From assembly GCF_023078335.1 (NCBI RefSeq), contig NZ_CP095550.1, positions 372,001-436,000 of the forward strand: a DNA stretch of 64,000 nucleotides, given 5' to 3'. The notes beneath the pieces were generated by a model that saw only the letters and a list, made by a program, of their open reading frames with translations, was not told where the DNA came from and searched no databases. The stretch comes from Metabacillus endolithicus. GTDB taxonomy: Bacteria; Bacillota; Bacilli; Bacillales; Bacillaceae. The position numbers and the translations under genes are program-made. Shown piece by piece: positions 46,811 to 53,782 of this stretch (position 1 is its first letter; the number at the start of each line of letters is the position of its first letter).

Positions 46811-47632
46811 TTAATAAGGCATGAAGCCTTCTTGGCTAATTAATATTTGATCTGAAGAAAGTGATTGTTTTAACTTTTCTACTGCAAGTTGATAGGTGTT
46901 TTTTCCGTACCATGTATCTAATTCTTCTGTTTTGTACAATTCCCTTATATTCAATCTCTCACTTCTTTTGCCTTGGCTTCCATCACCTGAGTAATCATCA
47001 ACAACTATTCGACTTACTAAGCTTGAAAGAATTTTTGGAAATTCATTTGAAAATGGCAGTACTGGTGCAACTGCTACTTGAACAGGTAAATTAGCCTCTT
47101 TAAGCTGAGAAATAGCTTTTAATCTTGCTTGTATTGGTGGTGCTTGCGGAGTGAATCGTTTGCGAACATCATCATCGTCTGTTTCCACTGTTATACTAAT
47201 CCTTAGCTTCTCCCTCAGCTTGTGAAACAAATCTATATCTCTGGTTACTAAAGGACTTCTTGTTTGAACAAATAAAAAATCTGGTGGATTTTCAGCCATT
47301 GCCTCAAGTAAAGCCCTTGTAATTAGTTCTTTATATTCAACAGGCTGATAGGGATCAGTACTTAAAGACATGAATATTGTTACAGGTTTGTCTCTTTTTC
47401 TTAAGTTTTTGATTTCACGAGAGAGTTTATCATGAGATTCTTGTTTTACATCAACCCATGTTCCCCACTCCTGCTTTCGAAATAAACCGACCGGACTTTG
47501 CCTTACATAACAATAAGAACAAGCAAATGAGCAGCCAGCATATGGATTCAATGAATGAGTATATCCATATAAAAACCCGCTTGTGGGAGTCAAAATTTTT
47601 TTAGGTATTTTATAATCAATAGTTGGTTTCAT
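46811..47632 (-). CDS. radical SAM protein of the SPL (spore photoproduct lyase-like) family
   Basis: This 273 aa protein has the radical SAM cluster motif CSFACSYCYVRQSP near residue 34 (C-x3-C-x2-C). It also has FMSLSTDPYQPVE and LFVQTRSPLVTRDIDLF, typical of COG1533 proteins related to SplB. True SplB, which repairs spore photoproduct in DNA, is about 340 aa, so this is a relative rather than SplB itself. It follows the two GerP-like genes by 30 bases on the same strand, suggesting a shared transcript and perhaps a spore role. Confidence 0.85.
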   Translation of the reverse strand: MKPTIDYKIPKKILTPTSGFLYGYTHSLNPYAGCSFACSYCYVRQSPVGLFRKQEWGTWVDVKQESHDKLSREIKNLRKRDKPVTIFMSLSTDPYQPVEYKELITRALLEAMAENPPDFLFVQTRSPLVTRDIDLFHKLREKLRISITVETDDDDVRKRFTPQAPPIQARLKAISQLKEANLPVQVAVAPVLPFSNEFPKILSSLVSRIVVDDYSGDGSQGKRSERLNIRELYKTEELDTWYGKNTYQLAVEKLKQSLSSDQILISQEGFMPY

Positions 47633-47662
47633 ATTTCACCACAACTTTTTAAGGTTTAGGAT

Positions 47663-47890
47663 TTATTCTTTTGCTTGATTAATCATTTCAAATTGACTTT
47701 TCGTCAATCCCTGTGAAATGATATCTTGAATATTATTATAATCACCTGAAATAGCTCCAAAGCCTTGAACTAGTTTTTTATGACTTGTAAAGTTGTTCGG
47801 AAAATTGTTTCCTATATTCACACATGAGGCACCTTCAACTGTTCCGATATTTAAGTTGCGAATATTCATAATTGGCGCGGGAAACTTCAT
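47663..47890 (-). CDS. small GerP-like protein, paralogue of the 48-49 kb set
   Basis: The ATG at 47890 follows AAAGAGGTGT and gives 75 aa. It shares with its neighbours at 48323, 48579 and 48840 the pattern I-x-N-x-x-x-N-I..G...VxIGNN...NF.SHKK..QGFGxIxGxYN. The short beta-strand style resembles GerPB/GerPD, small proteins needed for germinant access through the spore coat. It starts one base after the GerPC-like gene, so they are co-translated. The exact function is unproven. Confidence 0.65.
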   Translation of the reverse strand: MKFPAPIMNIRNLNIGTVEGASCVNIGNNFPNNFTSHKKLVQGFGAISGDYNNIQDIISQGLTKSQFEMINQAKE

Positions 47891-47891
47891 G

Positions 47892-48239
47892 CTAGACACC
47901 TCTTTCAATAGAATAATTCCTATGCTCTCCATTTACGAAAATAGTGATTTCATTTTCCTTCACTTTTTCCTCTTTATGTTTTTCTTCCTCTTTCTTTTTT
48001 TGCTTTTCTTTCTCGTTAACAACTGTCGGATTAAAGGTTGTGCCAATATTAAGAGAACCACTGTTTTCTTTTACATCAACAGTATCAATATTAAACACTA
48101 ACTCATTTAATGTTGGTTCATTCATTGTAAGAGTCTCAATATTAATTGTATTTCCCTTATTTAGTAAAAGAGATTCAATTCGTGTTAATTTGCTATTTAT
48201 TTCCTCTATATTTTTCAACAACTCATCTATTTTGCTCAT
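47892..48239 (-). CDS. GerPC-like coiled-coil protein
   Basis: The ATG at 48239 follows GAAGGAA and gives 115 aa, from the longer open frame. The protein begins with a coiled coil (MSKIDELLKNIEEINSKLTR). A beta region follows, with repeated I-x-x-x-x-x-E-x-L matches (NIETLTMNEPTLNELVFNID, then ENSGSLNIGTTFNP). A Lys/Glu-rich charged segment and a beta-like tail end it. The coiled coil plus the GSLNIG-type motif resembles GerPC, though GerPC is longer (about 200 aa). It is divergent from the gene at 48323. Confidence 0.68.
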   Translation of the reverse strand: MSKIDELLKNIEEINSKLTRIESLLLNKGNTINIETLTMNEPTLNELVFNIDTVDVKENSGSLNIGTTFNPTVVNEKEKQKKKEEEKHKEEKVKENEITIFVNGEHRNYSIERGV

Positions 48240-48322
48240 TTCCTTCAACTCAATTCGTATTTTGTAACGATTTATTCTGTATTTACATAGGTTGTTATAT
48301 ATCATAAGGATGGAGGGGTAAC

Positions 48323-48568
48323 ATGCCAAATTCAATCATCTTTAATACAATTGCAATTAATGCACAAGAAACAAACGCTGGTTTGTTTATCGGCCAAAAT
48401 AATGCTAACGGTTGGGATTCACATAATAAAAATATCTTTTCGATTGGTTTAATTTTAGGAGCTTTCAATACATTTCCTGCGAACTATAATGTGATTTTAG
48501 ATAATGATGCAATTGACACGCCTATAATGGCAAATGAAGTGATTCCGGCACCTGGAATGCAAGTGTAG
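48323..48568 (+). CDS. small GerP-like protein (81 aa)
   Basis: GGATGGAGGGG precedes the ATG. The 81 aa product begins MPNSIIFNTIAINAQETNAG and contains LFIGQNNANGWDSHNKNIFS, then GAFNTFPANYNVILDNDAIDTP. It shares the pattern G-x-F-x-G-x-N....(W/F)xS...G..xG.FN...N..D..ID.P with the genes at 48579, 48840 and 47663. It is divergent from the GerPC-like gene. The style of a short beta protein resembles GerPB/GerPD. Confidence 0.68.
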   Translation: MPNSIIFNTIAINAQETNAGLFIGQNNANGWDSHNKNIFSIGLILGAFNTFPANYNVILDNDAIDTPIMANEVIPAPGMQV

Positions 48569-48578
48569 GTGAACTTTT

Positions 48579-48803
48579 ATGACCTATTCTAGTCCATTTG
48601 TACAATTTGATGCGATTAAAGTATATGTAATTGATACGAATTCAGGAATATTTGTTGGTACAAATACACAATTAAATTGGACTTCTTCCTCAGACCGAAA
48701 AAATGGATTTGGTTCAATTTATGGCAATTTTAATAAAGTCTCTGAAAATTTTATTTTATTTAAAGATGACGATGTGATTGATACTCCTATTAACAGAAGA
48801 TAA
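48579..48803 (+). CDS. small GerP-like protein (74 aa)
   Basis: The 74 aa product lies 10 bases after the previous gene and follows the same pattern: FDAIKVYVIDTNSGIFVGTN, LNWTSSSDRKNGFGSIYGN and FILFKDDDVIDTPIN. The two make an operon. A paired hairpin at 48807-48847 terminates it and the convergent gene. Confidence 0.68.
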   Translation: MTYSSPFVQFDAIKVYVIDTNSGIFVGTNTQLNWTSSSDRKNGFGSIYGNFNKVSENFILFKDDDVIDTPINRR

Positions 48804-48806
48804 ATG

Positions 48807-48847
48807 CTGAATAGTATTAATTGTATAACTCAATTAGTACTATTCAG
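48807..48847. terminator. bidirectional terminator between convergent GerP-like genes
   Basis: CTGAATAGTATTAATTG and CAATTAGTACTATTCAG form a 17-bp stem with one G-U pair and a seven-base loop, followed by A/T runs on both strands. It overlaps the stop of the gene at 48840. Confidence 0.85.
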
Positions 48848-49052
48848 TAAAAAAACCTTGATCAATTATTTGATCATGCTTTGACATACCTATGTTTTTA
48901 CCCACTTTGTTAAAATTCCCGTCAACAGTGCCAAACCCCGCCGTTTCTTTACTATAGTGCGAAAAGTTCTTTTGAAGGTTTTTCCCCGAAAAAACACCTG
49001 AAGTTGATCCTACCTCTTGAATCTTAAGTTCTCCTATTTTTATATTTACCAC
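48840..49052 (-). CDS. small GerP-like protein (70 aa)
   Basis: This 70 aa product is the closest in the set to the 48579 protein: IGELKIQEVGSTSGVFSGKN, FSHYSKETAGFGTVDGNFNK and MSKHDQIID. The GFG.(V/I).GNFNKV motif is exact in both. It is encoded 17 bases downstream of the Hsp20-like gene on the same strand, so it probably shares its transcript. Together with its relatives it forms a family I do not recognise by name. Confidence 0.68.
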   Translation of the reverse strand: MVNIKIGELKIQEVGSTSGVFSGKNLQKNFSHYSKETAGFGTVDGNFNKVGKNIGMSKHDQIIDQGFFTE

Positions 49053-49069
49053 TGAAATGTCACCCCTAT

Positions 49070-49504
49070 TTATTCATTGAAAAACTCAATTGGAACAGTA
49101 ACATCATCTGATGAGGTACGACCTGAAGTAGGAATATTGATTTGAAGAATACCATAACGGTAAGAAGCTTTTAATTGCTGATATATAGCATTAGAAGGCA
49201 TTTTTATCTTCTTTCTAAAAGATCCATAAAACCTTTCTTGTTGAAGATACTCATAGTGTGGTACTTCAATATTTGGAATCTCACCTTGAATGACTAGGTA
49301 TGGGTCTTGAAGGGAAATTTTTATATCTTGTTGCGTCCTTATTCCTGGTATATCCATAATAACAACCATTTCTTCCTTAGACTGAAGGATATCTGCTCGA
49401 GGTCCAATTAAAGGATATGCATCCGATAAAACATCCCAAAAATCTTCCCCTAATACTTTCTGTGCTTCTTGAAAGGTATTAAAATTTTTGTTGTGTTTTT
49501 TCAT
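49070..49504 (-). CDS. Hsp20-like (alpha-crystallin domain) protein, spore-coat type
   Basis: The ATG at 49504 follows AAAGAGGG and gives 144 aa. The alpha-crystallin domain spans about residues 40-130: PRADILQSKEEMVVIMDIPG, then DIKISLQDPYLVIQGEIP, and the G-I-L-Q-I-N-I-P strand near 120 (YGILQINIPT). Small heat-shock proteins of this type (CotM, CotP) occur in Bacillus coats. It is in an operon with the 70 aa GerP-like gene, consistent with an envelope role. Confidence 0.82.
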   Translation of the reverse strand: MKKHNKNFNTFQEAQKVLGEDFWDVLSDAYPLIGPRADILQSKEEMVVIMDIPGIRTQQDIKISLQDPYLVIQGEIPNIEVPHYEYLQQERFYGSFRKKIKMPSNAIYQQLKASYRYGILQINIPTSGRTSSDDVTVPIEFFNE

Positions 49505-49588
49505 TTCATTCCCTCTTTTGTCTTTTATCATCATGTTTATGAATGAGAATTGATATTTATGTGAAAATATCATTTGTGACCTCCACAC

Positions 49589-49975
49589 ATATTTCTATCA
49601 ATCTGGATATTTTTTATCACTTATATAGTTAGAAAAAACAATAAGAAGCCTAGGGCCCCCTTCTGCTCTCTTATCTCCACAGCCTTTTCAGAGAAACCCG
49701 ACTGTTAATCCAGGAATAACAGCTATTTTAGGTAGCCAAACAGGTCCTAATGATTTCTCCGTGAAAACTGTTTATAATAATGGTATTAAAATTTGCAAGA
49801 ACATTTATGATGATTTCTAATATATTAAGTGTAATGCCTTTTATATATTTTTTATTAAGTATTTGAGATCCTGGCAACTCAACGCTCTAAAAATAATTGC
49901 TTCTATTTTATTCACGTAGGTATAACCCTTCTCAAACCATTTTTGATTAGGTAACTAAGAACACTCCACACCTGA
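49589..49975. other. gene-free stretch with a possible coding remnant
   Basis: A plus-strand frame is open from 49629 to a stop at 49818-49820 but has no start codon. The first residues read LEKTIRSLGPPSALLSPQPF and the C-terminus is IKICKNIYDDF. The composition (Pro, Gln, Asn, Thr) looks protein-like, so it may be a remnant of a gene truncated at its 5' side. No family is recognised. Confidence 0.35.
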
Positions 49976-50973
49976 CTATTTCATCAATTCATTCCGATCA
50001 ACTGCATGTGGTGGACGTTCCATCCACTTATGTTTAATGAGTATGCTTGCCCCATTCTCAGCAAATAAACCAACTTCACCTAATAATTTCGAATATTCTG
50101 TTGCAATATCTCGTCGCGGCTCCCAGCAATAGCTGTTCCATAATTCCCCATCCCTGCAGCAGACATCATAGATACTTGAAACATCATCAATTTATCTGAA
50201 AAAGGAGGTTCTTTTGTCACTAGCACATAAGCATCCCATGGAGTTGGAGCAGGAAGATCATCATGTTTTAAATAGTTACTCATAATTTCTGTATGTTTTT
50301 TTGCTATTTTTTTCCTTCTCTCATATAGCTTCGAACATCTTCAGTTCGAGCAACCTGTCCAAATGCTGTAACTAAAGTTCCTCCAAGGAAGTTTGTTTGT
50401 AAATTTGCATAAAAATTTGTAATCTCCATCGCTGTTAAAGGTCTTTGCTCACCAATCCAACCTGCTAAAAAAGCGTTGCTTTTCAACCATGTCTACCTCT
50501 TTTAAGTAAGGTATGTAAGGTGTTCTCACTTGCAGCCCTTTAGACAACATAATGTTTGTTGTATCATTGAATAATTCCATTGTCGAGGAGATGCATGACA
50601 TAAAGTGTTCTCTTATATCATTTCGAAAAGTATGTGGAAGTAAGGCACTATAAGTAACAAGAGCTCCCTTTGCCATTTGTTTTGTATAAAAAAGGAAAAA
50701 TTCATCTGTAAACAATTTTGGTGCTTTTATATCAACATCTTTTTCAGTAAATCCTTCAGGAATAGCATGTTTCTCTTCTGTAAAAATCTTTGTCACGACT
50801 GAAACATGTTGTTGAGCCAAATCTAAAGCATGCTCTAAAACAGATTTAATTTCCTTGTCTTCAACATGTGCTAAAAAATATTTATACACACAGATAAACA
50901 TGCTATCTGATACATAATTAGTCCAAAGCCCACCAATCTCAGAAGCTGTTAAACGAACATGATGTGACTCCAT
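49976..50973 (-). pseudogene. DUF3231-family gene with three frameshifts
   Basis: The first frame starts at 50973 (MESHHVRLTASEIGGLWTNY) and ends near 50449. The next resumes with LAGWIGEQRPLTAMEITNFY to about 50304, where GGAAAAAAATAG breaks it. The third reads MSNYLKHDDLPAPTPWDAYV to about 50130. A fourth (EYSKLLGEVGLFAENG to RNELMK) ends at 49976. Together they give one ~330 aa protein with the two-repeat helical DUF3231 layout, a family common in spore-formers and of unknown role. At least one break lies at a homopolymer (the A run). Confidence 0.82.
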
Positions 50974-51058
50974 TCTAATAACCTCCGTTTTTAATAACTA
51001 TTTGTATTTTAACCAGCCATGTAAAAAGTATTTACTTTACGGAAAAACTGAATATGTA

Positions 51059-51088
51059 AAAAGGTAAGCCGTAAAAAATGGCTCACCT
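51059..51088 (-). terminator. terminator of the YozQ-like gene
   Basis: AAAGGTAAGCC and GGCTCACCTTT form a stem with one mismatch, just after the stop at 51095. Confidence 0.72.
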
Positions 51089-51094
51089 TTGTTC

Positions 51095-51316
51095 TTATCG
51101 TGATTCTTTTTCGTAACCTTCTTTTTTCACTTCAACATCTTTACCATTTACATCATCAATAACAGGGTGTATCTCACCTTCCATAGATGCATCAGATGCT
51201 TGTTCATGTGTTGTCGCTATTCCAGCAGATAAAGTATCGGTTGCTTGATAGTCTTTCACATCATAAATCTTTCCTGCAAGATCTTTAGTGTTTTCGTTTG
51301 CTTTATTAACCGCCAT
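51095..51316 (-). CDS. YozQ-like (DUF4025) protein
   Basis: This 73 aa acidic soluble protein has the pattern KIYDVKDYQATDTLSAGIAT and THEQASDASMEGEI, which matches the YozQ family as I recall it (similar DYxxxDxLxxGLATTHEQVSDxYMEG pattern). The family is small, Bacillus-restricted and uncharacterised. It is followed by its own terminator and lies among spore-type genes. Confidence 0.72.
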   Translation of the reverse strand: MAVNKANENTKDLAGKIYDVKDYQATDTLSAGIATTHEQASDASMEGEIHPVIDDVNGKDVEVKKEGYEKESR

Positions 51317-51343
51317 TCCTATACACTCCTTTATTATAAATCT

Positions 51344-51508
51344 TTATGAACGATTTTCTTTTTTTGATATATCATGATTTGGATTTGTTTGATTTCCTGT
51401 TGATGCCTCGTACCCTACATTATAGGTAACGTCTTGTTGTTCTTGTAATGCTTGAGGCATTTTGTATTGATCTGCATCTTGTTGAAACTGTTTATTATTT
51501 TCTTTCAT
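51344..51508 (-). CDS. small Gln/Asn-rich protein (54 aa)
   Basis: AGGAGATCATC precedes the ATG at 51508. The product is MKENNKQFQQDADQYKMPQA followed by LQEQQDVTYNVGYEASTG and a polar tail. It is disordered-looking and Gln/Asn-rich, as are many small acid-soluble or coat-associated peptides. I do not recognise a family. Confidence 0.55.
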   Translation of the reverse strand: MKENNKQFQQDADQYKMPQALQEQQDVTYNVGYEASTGNQTNPNHDISKKENRS

Positions 51509-51656
51509 GATGATCTCCTTTTCCTCTTAACTCTATTAACATACACTTTAAGGACCTTCTGAATTCATTATGTCCAATGAAATAAAATCAATGTACAAAA
51601 TTAAATTACCTAGTGTTCAGATTCATTTCAATGTTAAAATTGATGGCTTAAACAAC

Positions 51657-51684
51657 AAAAAAAGAGCAGAAATGCTCTTTTTTC
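51657..51684. terminator. terminator of the CotF-like gene pair
   Basis: AAAAAAGAGCA-GAAA-TGCTCTTTTTT is a strong short hairpin with T runs on both strands, downstream of the gene ending at 51711. Confidence 0.85.
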
Positions 51685-51710
51685 GTATATGTAAAGAAAA
51701 CTTACTATGA

Positions 51711-52004
51711 TTAAAACTGATCATCAGGATGTAAATTATTTTGCATATATTCCTGAACATTCTTAATTTGATCTACAGTAGCAAGTTCTGTTTTATACCA
51801 CCCTTTTTCATCCATTAACTGATATAATTCATAATGATTTTTTGAAGCATTATCAAAGCACTGAGTATAGATGTCCCGAAGTTCCTTATGAGTGGTTTCC
51901 AACATCGTGCTTCCTAAGCTTCGACATCTTCCTTTTTCTAGCTCCAAACAAAGTTGTACCATTTCACGATCTGTTAATCCTCGTCCTTCTATATTGTTAG
52001 GCAT
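51711..52004 (-). CDS. CotF-like spore coat protein
   Basis: This 97 aa helical protein has LTDREMVQLCLELEKGRCRS and IYTQCFDNASKNHYELYQLM, the coat F domain pattern, with DEKGWYKTELATVDQ near the end. CotF-like proteins are ferritin-like helical bundles found in spore coats. The start follows AAAGGAGA. It is encoded 13 bases after the 67 aa gene, and the pair may form a heterodimer, as split CotF proteins do. Confidence 0.85.
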   Translation of the reverse strand: MPNNIEGRGLTDREMVQLCLELEKGRCRSLGSTMLETTHKELRDIYTQCFDNASKNHYELYQLMDEKGWYKTELATVDQIKNVQEYMQNNLHPDDQF

Positions 52005-52017
52005 TGTAAAATCTCCT

Positions 52018-52221
52018 TTATTGCATCATTTTTGATTGATTAAAGTATTGTGATAAGTCTGCAACTTTTAGCTGATGCTGCTCTGCCATTTGCTCTAATG
52101 ACTTTTTTAAGCTCTCATCTTCACAAAGAGAAGCACACCAGTTCATTGTTTTTGCTGTAATTTCTTCCGCTCTAATTTCATCTTCAATAAAAGATAATTC
52201 CTTCATTGTTAGCTGTTTCAT
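52018..52221 (-). CDS. short CotF-like partner protein (67 aa)
   Basis: This 67 aa helical protein (MKQLTMKELSFIEDEIRAEE, then MNWCASLCEDESLKKSLEQM) resembles the N-terminal half of coat F domain proteins and lies directly upstream of the full CotF-like gene, with which it forms an operon. Two Cys residues lie close together (CASLC). A site AGGAGTGAC precedes the start. Confidence 0.72.
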   Translation of the reverse strand: MKQLTMKELSFIEDEIRAEEITAKTMNWCASLCEDESLKKSLEQMAEQHQLKVADLSQYFNQSKMMQ

Positions 52222-52377
52222 TTTTAAGTCACTCCTACTTTAAAATCCTTCTCTTACGTTAGTATTTATCTTTATTTTATTATTATCCATAATGATGTGA
52301 ATTTGGATGCAATTTCTAACATAAGGGATATCAATAAAGAAGATATTAAGAGTGCAAAGATTGGAGGAAGAAAAAAC

Positions 52378-52818
52378 GTGAACCATTTAAAAGCTCTGGC
52401 GATAAAATCTGTTGTTTCTTTTCTTTTACTTTTTGTTGTGCTTGGCTTGTTATTTCAATATTCCCTTTCAGTTATATTAGGACTTACTCTAATTTTAGGC
52501 TTAGTTTCTTATATACTTGGAGATTTAATGCTTTTACCAAGAACATCAAACTTTACTGCAACAATTTCTGATTTTGCCATTGCAATGTTACTTACATGGT
52601 TTTACCTAGCGACGATCACAACCTATGCCACGAATGTATTTATCGCATCACTTATCACAGCAATTGGTGTTGCGTTATTTGAGAGCGTCTTCCATCGATA
52701 TATGAGAAAAAACGTTTTACACGAAAAAGAAAGCCATGTGAATATAGGAAATTTACGTTACACTACTGAAGTATCGGAAGAAATTTCTCCAGATTATCAT
52801 AAAATAAAGGAAGATTAA
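52378..52818 (+). CDS. DUF2512 (YndM-like) membrane protein
   Basis: A GTG at 52378 follows TTGGAGGAAG and gives 146 aa; the longer frame from 52297 has no such site. The protein has four membrane helices in the first 110 residues (ALAIKSVVSFLLLFVVLGLL, then ILGLTLILGLVSYILGDLML and two more). An acidic soluble tail follows. The pattern fits the DUF2512 (YndM) family, found mainly in spore-formers. Function unknown. A terminator follows directly. Confidence 0.85.
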   Translation: MNHLKALAIKSVVSFLLLFVVLGLLFQYSLSVILGLTLILGLVSYILGDLMLLPRTSNFTATISDFAIAMLLTWFYLATITTYATNVFIASLITAIGVALFESVFHRYMRKNVLHEKESHVNIGNLRYTTEVSEEISPDYHKIKED

Positions 52819-52843
52819 ACCTAATCAAAATGATTAGGTTTTT
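52817..52843 (+). terminator. terminator of the DUF2512 gene
   Basis: AACCTAATCA-AAA-TGATTAGGTT is a perfect 10-bp stem with a T tail, overlapping the stop codon. Confidence 0.9.
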
Positions 52844-52933
52844 ACTTATTTTACAGGCAACACAAATTTCAGTTCTGCATATAATAAAATGAAGGATGAT
52901 TTAAGGGGATTTATTAAAAATCTGGTACCTACT

Positions 52934-53152
52934 TTAATTATTACCAAGTAAATTTTGATCTAAAACTTCAGGATCAACACCATTTGTTATGCTCTGACCA
53001 TTCATAACTAATTGATAGTCCCCAACTCCCCCACCACCTGATCCTGTTATGGCTTTGTCGATGCTTTTGGGAGAAATGCTATATGAATCACCAAAATTAA
53101 TCACTCCACCACTAACACTATCAATTTTTAAATTTTTAATAAAACACGGCAT
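52934..53152 (-). CDS. GerPA/GerPF-family spore germination protein
   Basis: This 72 aa protein matches GerPA/GerPF: the N-terminal IDSVSGGVINFGDSYSISPKS, a Gly-rich centre (GSGGGGVGDYQL) and the C-terminal NGQSITNGVDPEVLDQN. GerP proteins, made late in sporulation, help germinants pass the coat. In most bacilli gerPA-gerPF form one operon; here the gene is single, about 4-5 kb from a GerPC-like gene and four small relatives, an unusual arrangement. It may be an orphan paralogue. Confidence 0.9.
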   Translation of the reverse strand: MPCFIKNLKIDSVSGGVINFGDSYSISPKSIDKAITGSGGGGVGDYQLVMNGQSITNGVDPEVLDQNLLGNN

Positions 53153-53328
53153 TTAGCTAGCCCCCCTTTCGTTAGAGCTTTTACGCTATTGTATGGAATT
53201 TATGTATATTGTTGTGGACACGTCCCTACTCAATGAAAAGATAGACAAAGTTTTTCATACATGAAATGGGTACTTTATACAAAGCATAAGATGAAGCAAA
53301 TTTCTTCGTAATAATGGAGGGTATATCA

Positions 53329-53550
53329 TTGAGAAATGTACGTTACTTAATACAAGATGAATTTCAAGCAAACCAAGTTGCAGATGATCTCAAAGTACAA
53401 CTTAACATAAACAGGATGGAAACGATTTCAATCACAAGTGTAGAAAGTCGCAATGAGGTAATTGTCCAAATTCCTGAAGCAAATGAATCAGTAGAAGAGG
53501 TTTTATCAGGCTTTATGAGGGGTTATCAAAAAGGAATGATTCTTGAATAA
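53329..53550 (+). CDS. small soluble protein (73 aa)
   Basis: A TTG at 53329 follows GGAGGGTATATCA with correct spacing, favoured over the ATG at 53314, which would bury that site. The product starts LRNVRYLIQDEFQANQVADD-like and carries VQIPEANESVEEVLSGFMRG near the end. No family is recognised. It is convergent with the YjcZ gene and shares its terminator. Confidence 0.55.
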   Translation: MRNVRYLIQDEFQANQVADDLKVQLNINRMETISITSVESRNEVIVQIPEANESVEEVLSGFMRGYQKGMILE

Positions 53551-53620
53551 GAGAAAACTTGGCTTATTGACAAGCCCCTTTGAAGAAAACCTAATTTTCC
53601 TTATACTTAGCAAAATAATA

Positions 53621-53647
53621 AAAAAGGTTGCCAGGGCAACCTTTTTC
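53621..53647. terminator. bidirectional terminator between the 73 aa and YjcZ genes
   Basis: AAAAAGGTTGCC-AG-GGCAACCTTTTT is a perfect 12-bp stem with T runs on both strands. Confidence 0.92.
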
Positions 53648-53653
53648 TACTTC

Positions 53654-53782
53654 TTAGCACCAAGCTGCTCCTACAATGATAAGAAGAATAAATAAAACAA
53701 CAATCAACACAAAAGGATTTACTCCTGCTGAAGCAACTGGAGCATATCCATATCCACATCCGTAATTACAACCATAGCCCAT
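53654..53782 (-). CDS. YjcZ-family sporulation peptide (42 aa)
   Basis: The ATG at 53782 follows AAGGAGGAAATAAC. The 42-residue product begins MGYGCNYGCGYGYAPVASAG and ends in the helix [19 protein letters not shown]. It has three Cys residues, unlike the copy at 12438. The [12 protein letters not shown] helix is identical in both. This is the YjcZ sporulation-peptide pattern. It lies at the edge of the spore-envelope gene cluster. Confidence 0.9.
   Translation of the reverse strand: MGYGCNYGCGYGYAPVASAGVNPFVLIVVLFILLIIVGAAWC

Follow-up and report, generated by a model that had tools for sequence, protein, structure and literature searches.

Among the closest described counterparts of the genes reported here is the canonical gerP locus (gerPABCDEF; Pfam families PF10676 and PF10737), which forms one operon in the order gerPA-B-C-D-E-F. 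The sigma-K regulon of Bacillus subtilis includes gerPA, cotM, and yjcZ, and the elements recognised by sigma-K are separated by a gap of 14-16 (PMC517825). Bacillus anthracis has two further gerPF-like genes (gerPF2 and gerPF3), reported to be redundant with gerPF in germination, a germination defect arising only once three gerPF genes are removed; the sections covered report no Hsp20 or GerPC-like partner alongside them (PMC2817736). Here we describe a GerP-like gene set of Metabacillus endolithicus (genome 5.3 Mb, two contigs), located in the region 46811..53782 of a 64,000-nucleotide stretch of DNA, hereafter the window (G000:C1:372001-436000). The conserved unit is only 47663-49504 and comprises four short GerPA-like genes (A1 to A4), a gene for a GerPC-like coiled coil (C), and an Hsp20 gene. 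We consider it probable that this unit is a spore-coat module which is made late in the mother cell, works in parallel with GerP, and has the Hsp20 as its assembly partner.

Gene content of the module

The module and its candidate promoter are as follows.

47663..47890, minus strand: A4, 75-aa GerPA-like protein; gerPA Pfam score 23.0 bits, below the cut-off of 27.3
47892..48239, minus strand: C, protein of 115 aa with a coiled coil, similar by profile match to the N-terminus of GerPC; no Pfam hit
48267..48293, plus strand: weak match to a sigma-K-like promoter ahead of A1, seen only with the relaxed pattern, which also precedes 32/474 control genes
48323..48568, plus strand: A1, 81-aa GerPA-like protein, similar to A2; no Pfam hit
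48579..48803, plus strand: A2, 74-aa GerPA-like protein, similar to A1 and A3; no Pfam hit
48840..49052, minus strand: A3, 70-aa GerPA-like protein with a GTG start, similar to A2; gerPA Pfam score 18.4 bits, below the cut-off of 27.3
49070..49504, minus strand: Hsp20/alpha-crystallin protein of 144 aa, encoded upstream of A3 and on its strand; PF00011, 57 bits, over the cut-off

The genes are thus ordered C-A4 on the minus strand, A1-A2 on the plus strand, and Hsp20-A3 on the minus strand, and at the C-A4 junction the TAG stop of C is separated by one base from the ATG of A4. Every one of A1 to A4 is similar to one or more of the other three (phmmer, 3.6e-6 to 9.9e-13, best two matches per open reading frame, ORF), as the first-pass annotation had noticed. 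A1 is also matched by the alignment of the A family, which includes A1 itself, and A4 has 18 invariant columns across a 12-row alignment of relatives. C adjoins A genes in relatives as well. With NCBIfam, the A proteins had no match, and C had one at chance level only. With an Hsp20 gene beside A-family genes and C, the module shows the arrangement by which we define Hsp20-GerP-like loci, as in the yoc locus discussed below.

Relation to the GerP families

Profile-profile comparison (hhalign, with alignments rebuilt without canonical rows) matched the A family to GerPA (93.1%, E 3.2e-7, 64 columns) and GerPF (87.1%, E 4e-6), with lower values for GerPE (31%), GerPB (27%), GerPD (10%), and GerPC (2%). 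The C family matched GerPC over its N-terminal part only (95.3%, E 2.2e-8, 54 columns; 94.2% in an earlier run) and the other GerP profiles at 2% or less, in agreement with the prediction of a GerPC-like coiled-coil gene made from the sequence alone. The A alignment without canonical rows also matches the canonical gerPA of this genome (E 4e-5). With the Pfam models, the module reaches neither the PF10676 cut-off nor that of PF10737 (22.4), for which the C of the window gave no hit and the best of three fused relatives scored 19.9. By profile match, the A family belongs to the wider GerPA/GerPF superfamily and C to the wider GerPC family. A search of PDB sequences returned a best E of 0.22 for the A family and nothing at E 0.1 for GerPC. 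A beta motif shared by C and A is at most a reading by eye of the letters and of a low-confidence C-A4 model, in which each part has a long strand followed by a short one.

The canonical gerPA to gerPF genes are present elsewhere in the genome (C1:3438.7-3440.8k), and the idea in the first-pass annotation of an additional GerP-like set, separate from that operon, is supported. Both sets combine several short GerPA/GerPF-like proteins with one coiled-coil protein like the GerPC N-terminus, and a sigma-K-like site also precedes the gerPA of this genome. In contrast to the single canonical operon, the module genes are spread over both strands; the module has A1 to A4 instead of the canonical A/B/D/E/F, plus an Hsp20, and its C is 115 aa long versus 200 aa for canonical GerPC. 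Canonical GerPC was identified in 21/21 genomes of the genus, including that of the window. In one relative (L033; G042:C32), the module and canonical gerP genes lie approximately 10 kb apart on one contig.

Besides the orphan gerPF-like gene in the window, the genome encodes another at 1597.4k. It also has a locus at approximately 3175-3178k that combines two genes for Hsp20 with two A-like genes and one coiled-coil gene. Within this locus, a GerPA-like gene (C1:3176790-3177101, minus strand; L015:5291-5602; PF10676 over the cut-off) lacks any of the starts ATG, GTG, and TTG; instead, ATT (ATT CCA AAA) stands seven bases past a strong ribosome site, and the same is seen in the relative G015 (L136). 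The gene therefore has an apparent AUU start codon.

Conservation across genomes

A search of named genomes with the A4 alignment found 91 relatives, of which the best 80 loci were kept for counts; the models for A, C, and Hsp20 were trained partly on the loci that they count, and genes may be missing from loci truncated by the end of a contig, L050 for example. These loci belong mostly to Bacillaceae, and also to Paenibacillaceae, Alicyclobacillaceae, Sporolactobacillaceae, Thermoactinomycetaceae, and a few other families. Four or five A genes are present in 59/80 loci (four in 31, five in 28), and the remaining 21 have one (8 loci), two (8), three (1), six (2), seven (1), or eight (1). C was identified in 76/80 loci and Hsp20 in 59/80. 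Hsp20 accompanies C in 55 of the 61 loci in which C is unfused and was not detected in the other 6; it was detected in none of the 15 loci in which C is fused to A4, and 4 loci have Hsp20 with no C found. Rebuilding the alignments without canonical sequences gave the same locus counts and slightly better profile scores against GerPA, GerPF, and GerPC. A search with C matched the genome of the window and 15/59 relatives; at all 16 loci A-like genes lie beside C, and in nine of them C and A4 form a single ORF of 210-216 aa.

In the A4 tree, a single unfused domain (L109) groups with all 15 fused ones in one clade (support 100/97), and fusion and Hsp20 absence may thus be a single evolutionary event. 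Fisher p values overstate certainty, because the loci depend on one another by descent and those of the fused type make up nearly one clade. The pair to which the A4 of the window belongs has a long branch of weak placement, away from the fused type, and horizontal transfer of the module of the window is neither favoured nor disfavoured by it. The relative G015 has the six ORFs of the module intact and identically ordered, and its C is 96% identical. The core of the module is widely syntenic in relatives, which answers the concern raised in the first-pass annotation that synteny might not be conserved. Among the 20 other genomes of the genus, one additional A4 match was weak and of the yoc type.

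In a survey of 299 genomes drawn from the order, an A4-type match was found in 69/299 at E 1e-8, a threshold that also admits yoc-type matches. Canonical GerPC is encoded in 66/69 of these module carriers versus 168/230 of the other genomes. The module was found in 0/11 genomes lacking SpoIVA versus 69/288 with SpoIVA, a weak contrast (chance 0.05). The conserved six-gene set is currently unnamed, and many other spore-formers carry versions of it.

Promoters

Sequences upstream of 213 module lead genes were compared with those of 474 neighbouring lead genes from the same loci and with a shuffled control (213). An unguided pattern search, which excluded patterns occurring fewer than 12 times, returned the sigma-K promoter: CATAnnnTA ranked top of 4004 patterns (64/213 versus 24/474, p 5e-18), and AC stands 16 or 17 bp before it 18 and 21 times, respectively, compared with 1-8 times at other spacings. 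The guided searches used sigma-K, sigma-E, and GerE patterns. Strict sigma-K sites precede 42/213 module genes, 4/474 neighbours, and 3/213 shuffled sequences or, counted per locus, 35/76 versus 4/80. Neither the sigma-E pattern (13/213 module genes versus 14/474 neighbours, p 0.06) nor the GerE pattern (7/213 versus 18/474) gave a signal. Of the three kinds of site that the first-pass annotation had proposed to look for, only that of sigma-K emerged, clearly in relatives and as one relaxed match in the module of the window. Among the genes scanned in the window, the only strict sigma-K site belongs to an orphan gerPF-like gene outside the module.

Probable sister loci in Bacillus subtilis

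We take genome G091 to be B. subtilis 168 on the basis of its gene order, and accordingly use the names yocL, yocM, yozN, yocN, ydgA, ydgB, and cotP. By sequence comparison, yocL-yocM-yozN-yocN and ydgB-ydgA-cotP look like sister loci of the module, and the only two Hsp20 matches of this genome at E 1e-3 (YocM and CotP) both lie beside A-type genes. The yoc locus combines C (YocL), Hsp20 (YocM), and three A-family genes (YozN, YocN, and one more ORF) on both strands; it differs in having other A subtypes, with a weak match to the A4-type model (7e-13), and one -10 element only, the strict sigma-K site not being found. At ydgB-ydgA-cotP, A-like genes lie directly upstream of the coat Hsp20, although C was not found in the stretch examined, and the A members are distant (5.8e-5 and 0.0076), only YdgB passing the A model. 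B. tequilensis has a module of the window type where G091 keeps only a partial A4 relic (L131:6397-6636; L130) next to a transporter gene.

Across 18 Hsp20 matches in five genomes, A and C were both missing from 11 stretches, and a further one had C without A. An N-terminal DFW motif, considered as a mark of module Hsp20 proteins, was dropped since it was present in 17/78. In a ranking of B. subtilis genes by bias in serine codon use, gerPB, gerPD, gerPE, gerPF, ydgA, ydgB, and yocN all fall within the top 50, and yocN is filed under metabolism (PMC11925247, Table 1).

Neighbouring genes

The other features identified in the studied region lie outside the conserved module.

46811..47632, minus strand: radical SAM protein; scores above the cut-offs of both PF04055 and PF20903 (spore photoproduct lyase)
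51711..52004: Coat_F gene (Pfam)
52934..53152, minus strand: orphan gerPF-like gene; PF10676, 73.2 bits, over the cut-off of 27.3
53187..53213, minus strand: strict sigma-K-like promoter of the orphan gerPF-like gene (pattern match)
53654..53782: YjcZ gene (Pfam)

The genes named in the first-pass annotation are present by Pfam, phmmer, and profile searches, including DUF4025/YozQ and DUF2512 genes verified by Pfam, with two corrections: Coat_F is carried by one gene only, 52018..52221 having weak DUF2383/DUF3231 matches, and the DUF3231 gene (approximately 50080..50973) is broken into three ORF pieces in the window, where the close relative L032 has a single intact 332-aa ORF. A short fragment at 49728..49877 resembles, by eye, a 146-aa membrane-protein ORF that is intact at L032:9461-9901. 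The radical SAM protein, encoded directly downstream of A4, is kin of the PA0069 and Rv2578c families and of spore photoproduct lyase, and scores far under the NCBIfam lyase cut-off.

The proposal that the whole 7 kb forms one set was not supported by comparison with the 80 named loci (phmmer, E 1e-3, flanks of at most 7 kb): the radical SAM protein has matches near the module in 2/80, DUF3231 has them in 4/80, and the gerPF-like, DUF2512, CotF, and 78-aa proteins of the window have them in 0/80, and we reject the whole region as a single system. The orphan gerPF-like gene, like gerPF2 and gerPF3 of B. anthracis, is a dispersed gerPF-type gene besides the operon, and the result of removing three gerPF genes in that species is a precedent for such genes mattering. 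The orphan gene of the window possibly acts in the same pathway as the module.

Proposed function and alternatives

In the mechanism that we propose, sigma-K-type promoters, with a signal in the family that is weak in the window, would drive the module genes, which would thus be read late in the mother cell. C would serve as a coiled-coil scaffold onto which A1 to A4 add; the fusion of C and A4 elsewhere suggests that the two touch. The Hsp20 may keep the sticky small subunits soluble and be deposited with them, and the resulting layer may tune coat permeability to germinants, or coat robustness, alongside canonical GerP. The location in the coat and the permeability role are what we infer from this comparison. 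In favour of this interpretation are the recurrence of the same parts and order in the named loci, the profile matches to GerPA, GerPF, and GerPC, the C-A4 fusions, the sigma-K signal in relatives, the place of gerPA, cotM, and yjcZ in the sigma-K regulon, the A-type neighbours of both Hsp20 genes of G091, the listing of cotP as a spore coat gene, the larger share of canonical GerPC among module carriers, and the redundant gerPF-like genes of B. anthracis.

Several observations weigh against this interpretation. The sigma-K signal lies mainly at A genes, since strict sites precede A in 37/121 cases, C in 1/31, and Hsp20 in 4/61, and the module of the window itself has one weak (relaxed) match only. 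Comparison of the A profile with that of C gives no match (2%, hhalign), and two AlphaFold2 predictions were poor (mean pLDDT 52 and 73, pTM 0.27 each) and lend co-assembly no support. Hsp20 was not detected in 21/80 loci, and only one or two A genes are present in 16/80. The distribution within the genus is patchy, with a strong A4 match in 5/21 genomes (4/20 other than that of the window). The coiled-coil gene of the Hsp20 locus at approximately 3175-3178k is unmatched by the C model, which slightly lowers our confidence. In addition, published work links YocM to the protection of cells against stress: a cited paper names salt stress in its title, and the protein is reported to co-localise with salt- and heat-induced aggregates.

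These properties of YocM would fit a structural module whose role is in the strength of the coat or in resistance to stress; the Hsp20 would then be the active chaperone and the GerP-like proteins coat filler, and permeability would be unaffected. The near-constant presence of Hsp20 in unfused modules and the fact that canonical GerP is usually already present point the same way; however, the printed relatives with a tested role, the GerP proteins, act in germinant access as far as the sources seen describe, and the loci without detected Hsp20 also argue against it. We regard this alternative as rather unlikely, while giving it more weight than the two that follow. The printed work on YocM, in the parts seen, concerns stress in cells, and the locus might therefore be a vegetative stress-chaperone locus, in which the A proteins and C are clients or regulators of Hsp20 in growing cells and the likeness to GerP reflects shared ancestry only. 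The sigma-K signal at module genes, the absence of the module from the genomes lacking SpoIVA (weak, as noted above), and the listing of cotP as a spore coat gene in PMC3533761 make this improbable. Slightly less probable still is that the genes are remnants of ordinary coat-gene turnover in one genome, with no function as a unit. The broken DUF3231 and membrane-protein genes nearby, the A4 relic in G091 where B. tequilensis has the module, and the long branch of the A4 of the window are consistent with such decay, but six intact ORFs in the same order in G015, the high identity of C, and the invariant columns of A4 speak against it. A late mother-cell coat module parallel to GerP, partnered by Hsp20, is the interpretation that we favour.

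Implications

No GerP-like set with an Hsp20 was found in titles or abstract openings of the open-access library searched, for the terms used and among the matches listed. GerP lets small molecules through the spore coat by a route that is not yet understood, and the module would provide another natural version of it, one that is widespread and whose parts can be counted. It would also place beside GerP hundreds of protein clusters: 362 are akin to A4 alone, and most of the 120 listed are unnamed or "hypothetical protein", two of them bearing the name "Spore germination protein" in one source. More tentatively, and with somewhat less than even confidence, we suggest that GerP may be one of a larger class of coat modules, each consisting of one coiled-coil protein and several short GerPA-like subunits, and that the members other than GerP rely for their assembly on a small heat-shock protein of their own, a chaperone that the C-A4 fusion would make dispensable. 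If this is true, CotP and YocM would be assembly chaperones of GerP-like coat layers. The module thus suggests a role for the small heat-shock proteins of the coat that would be testable in B. subtilis.

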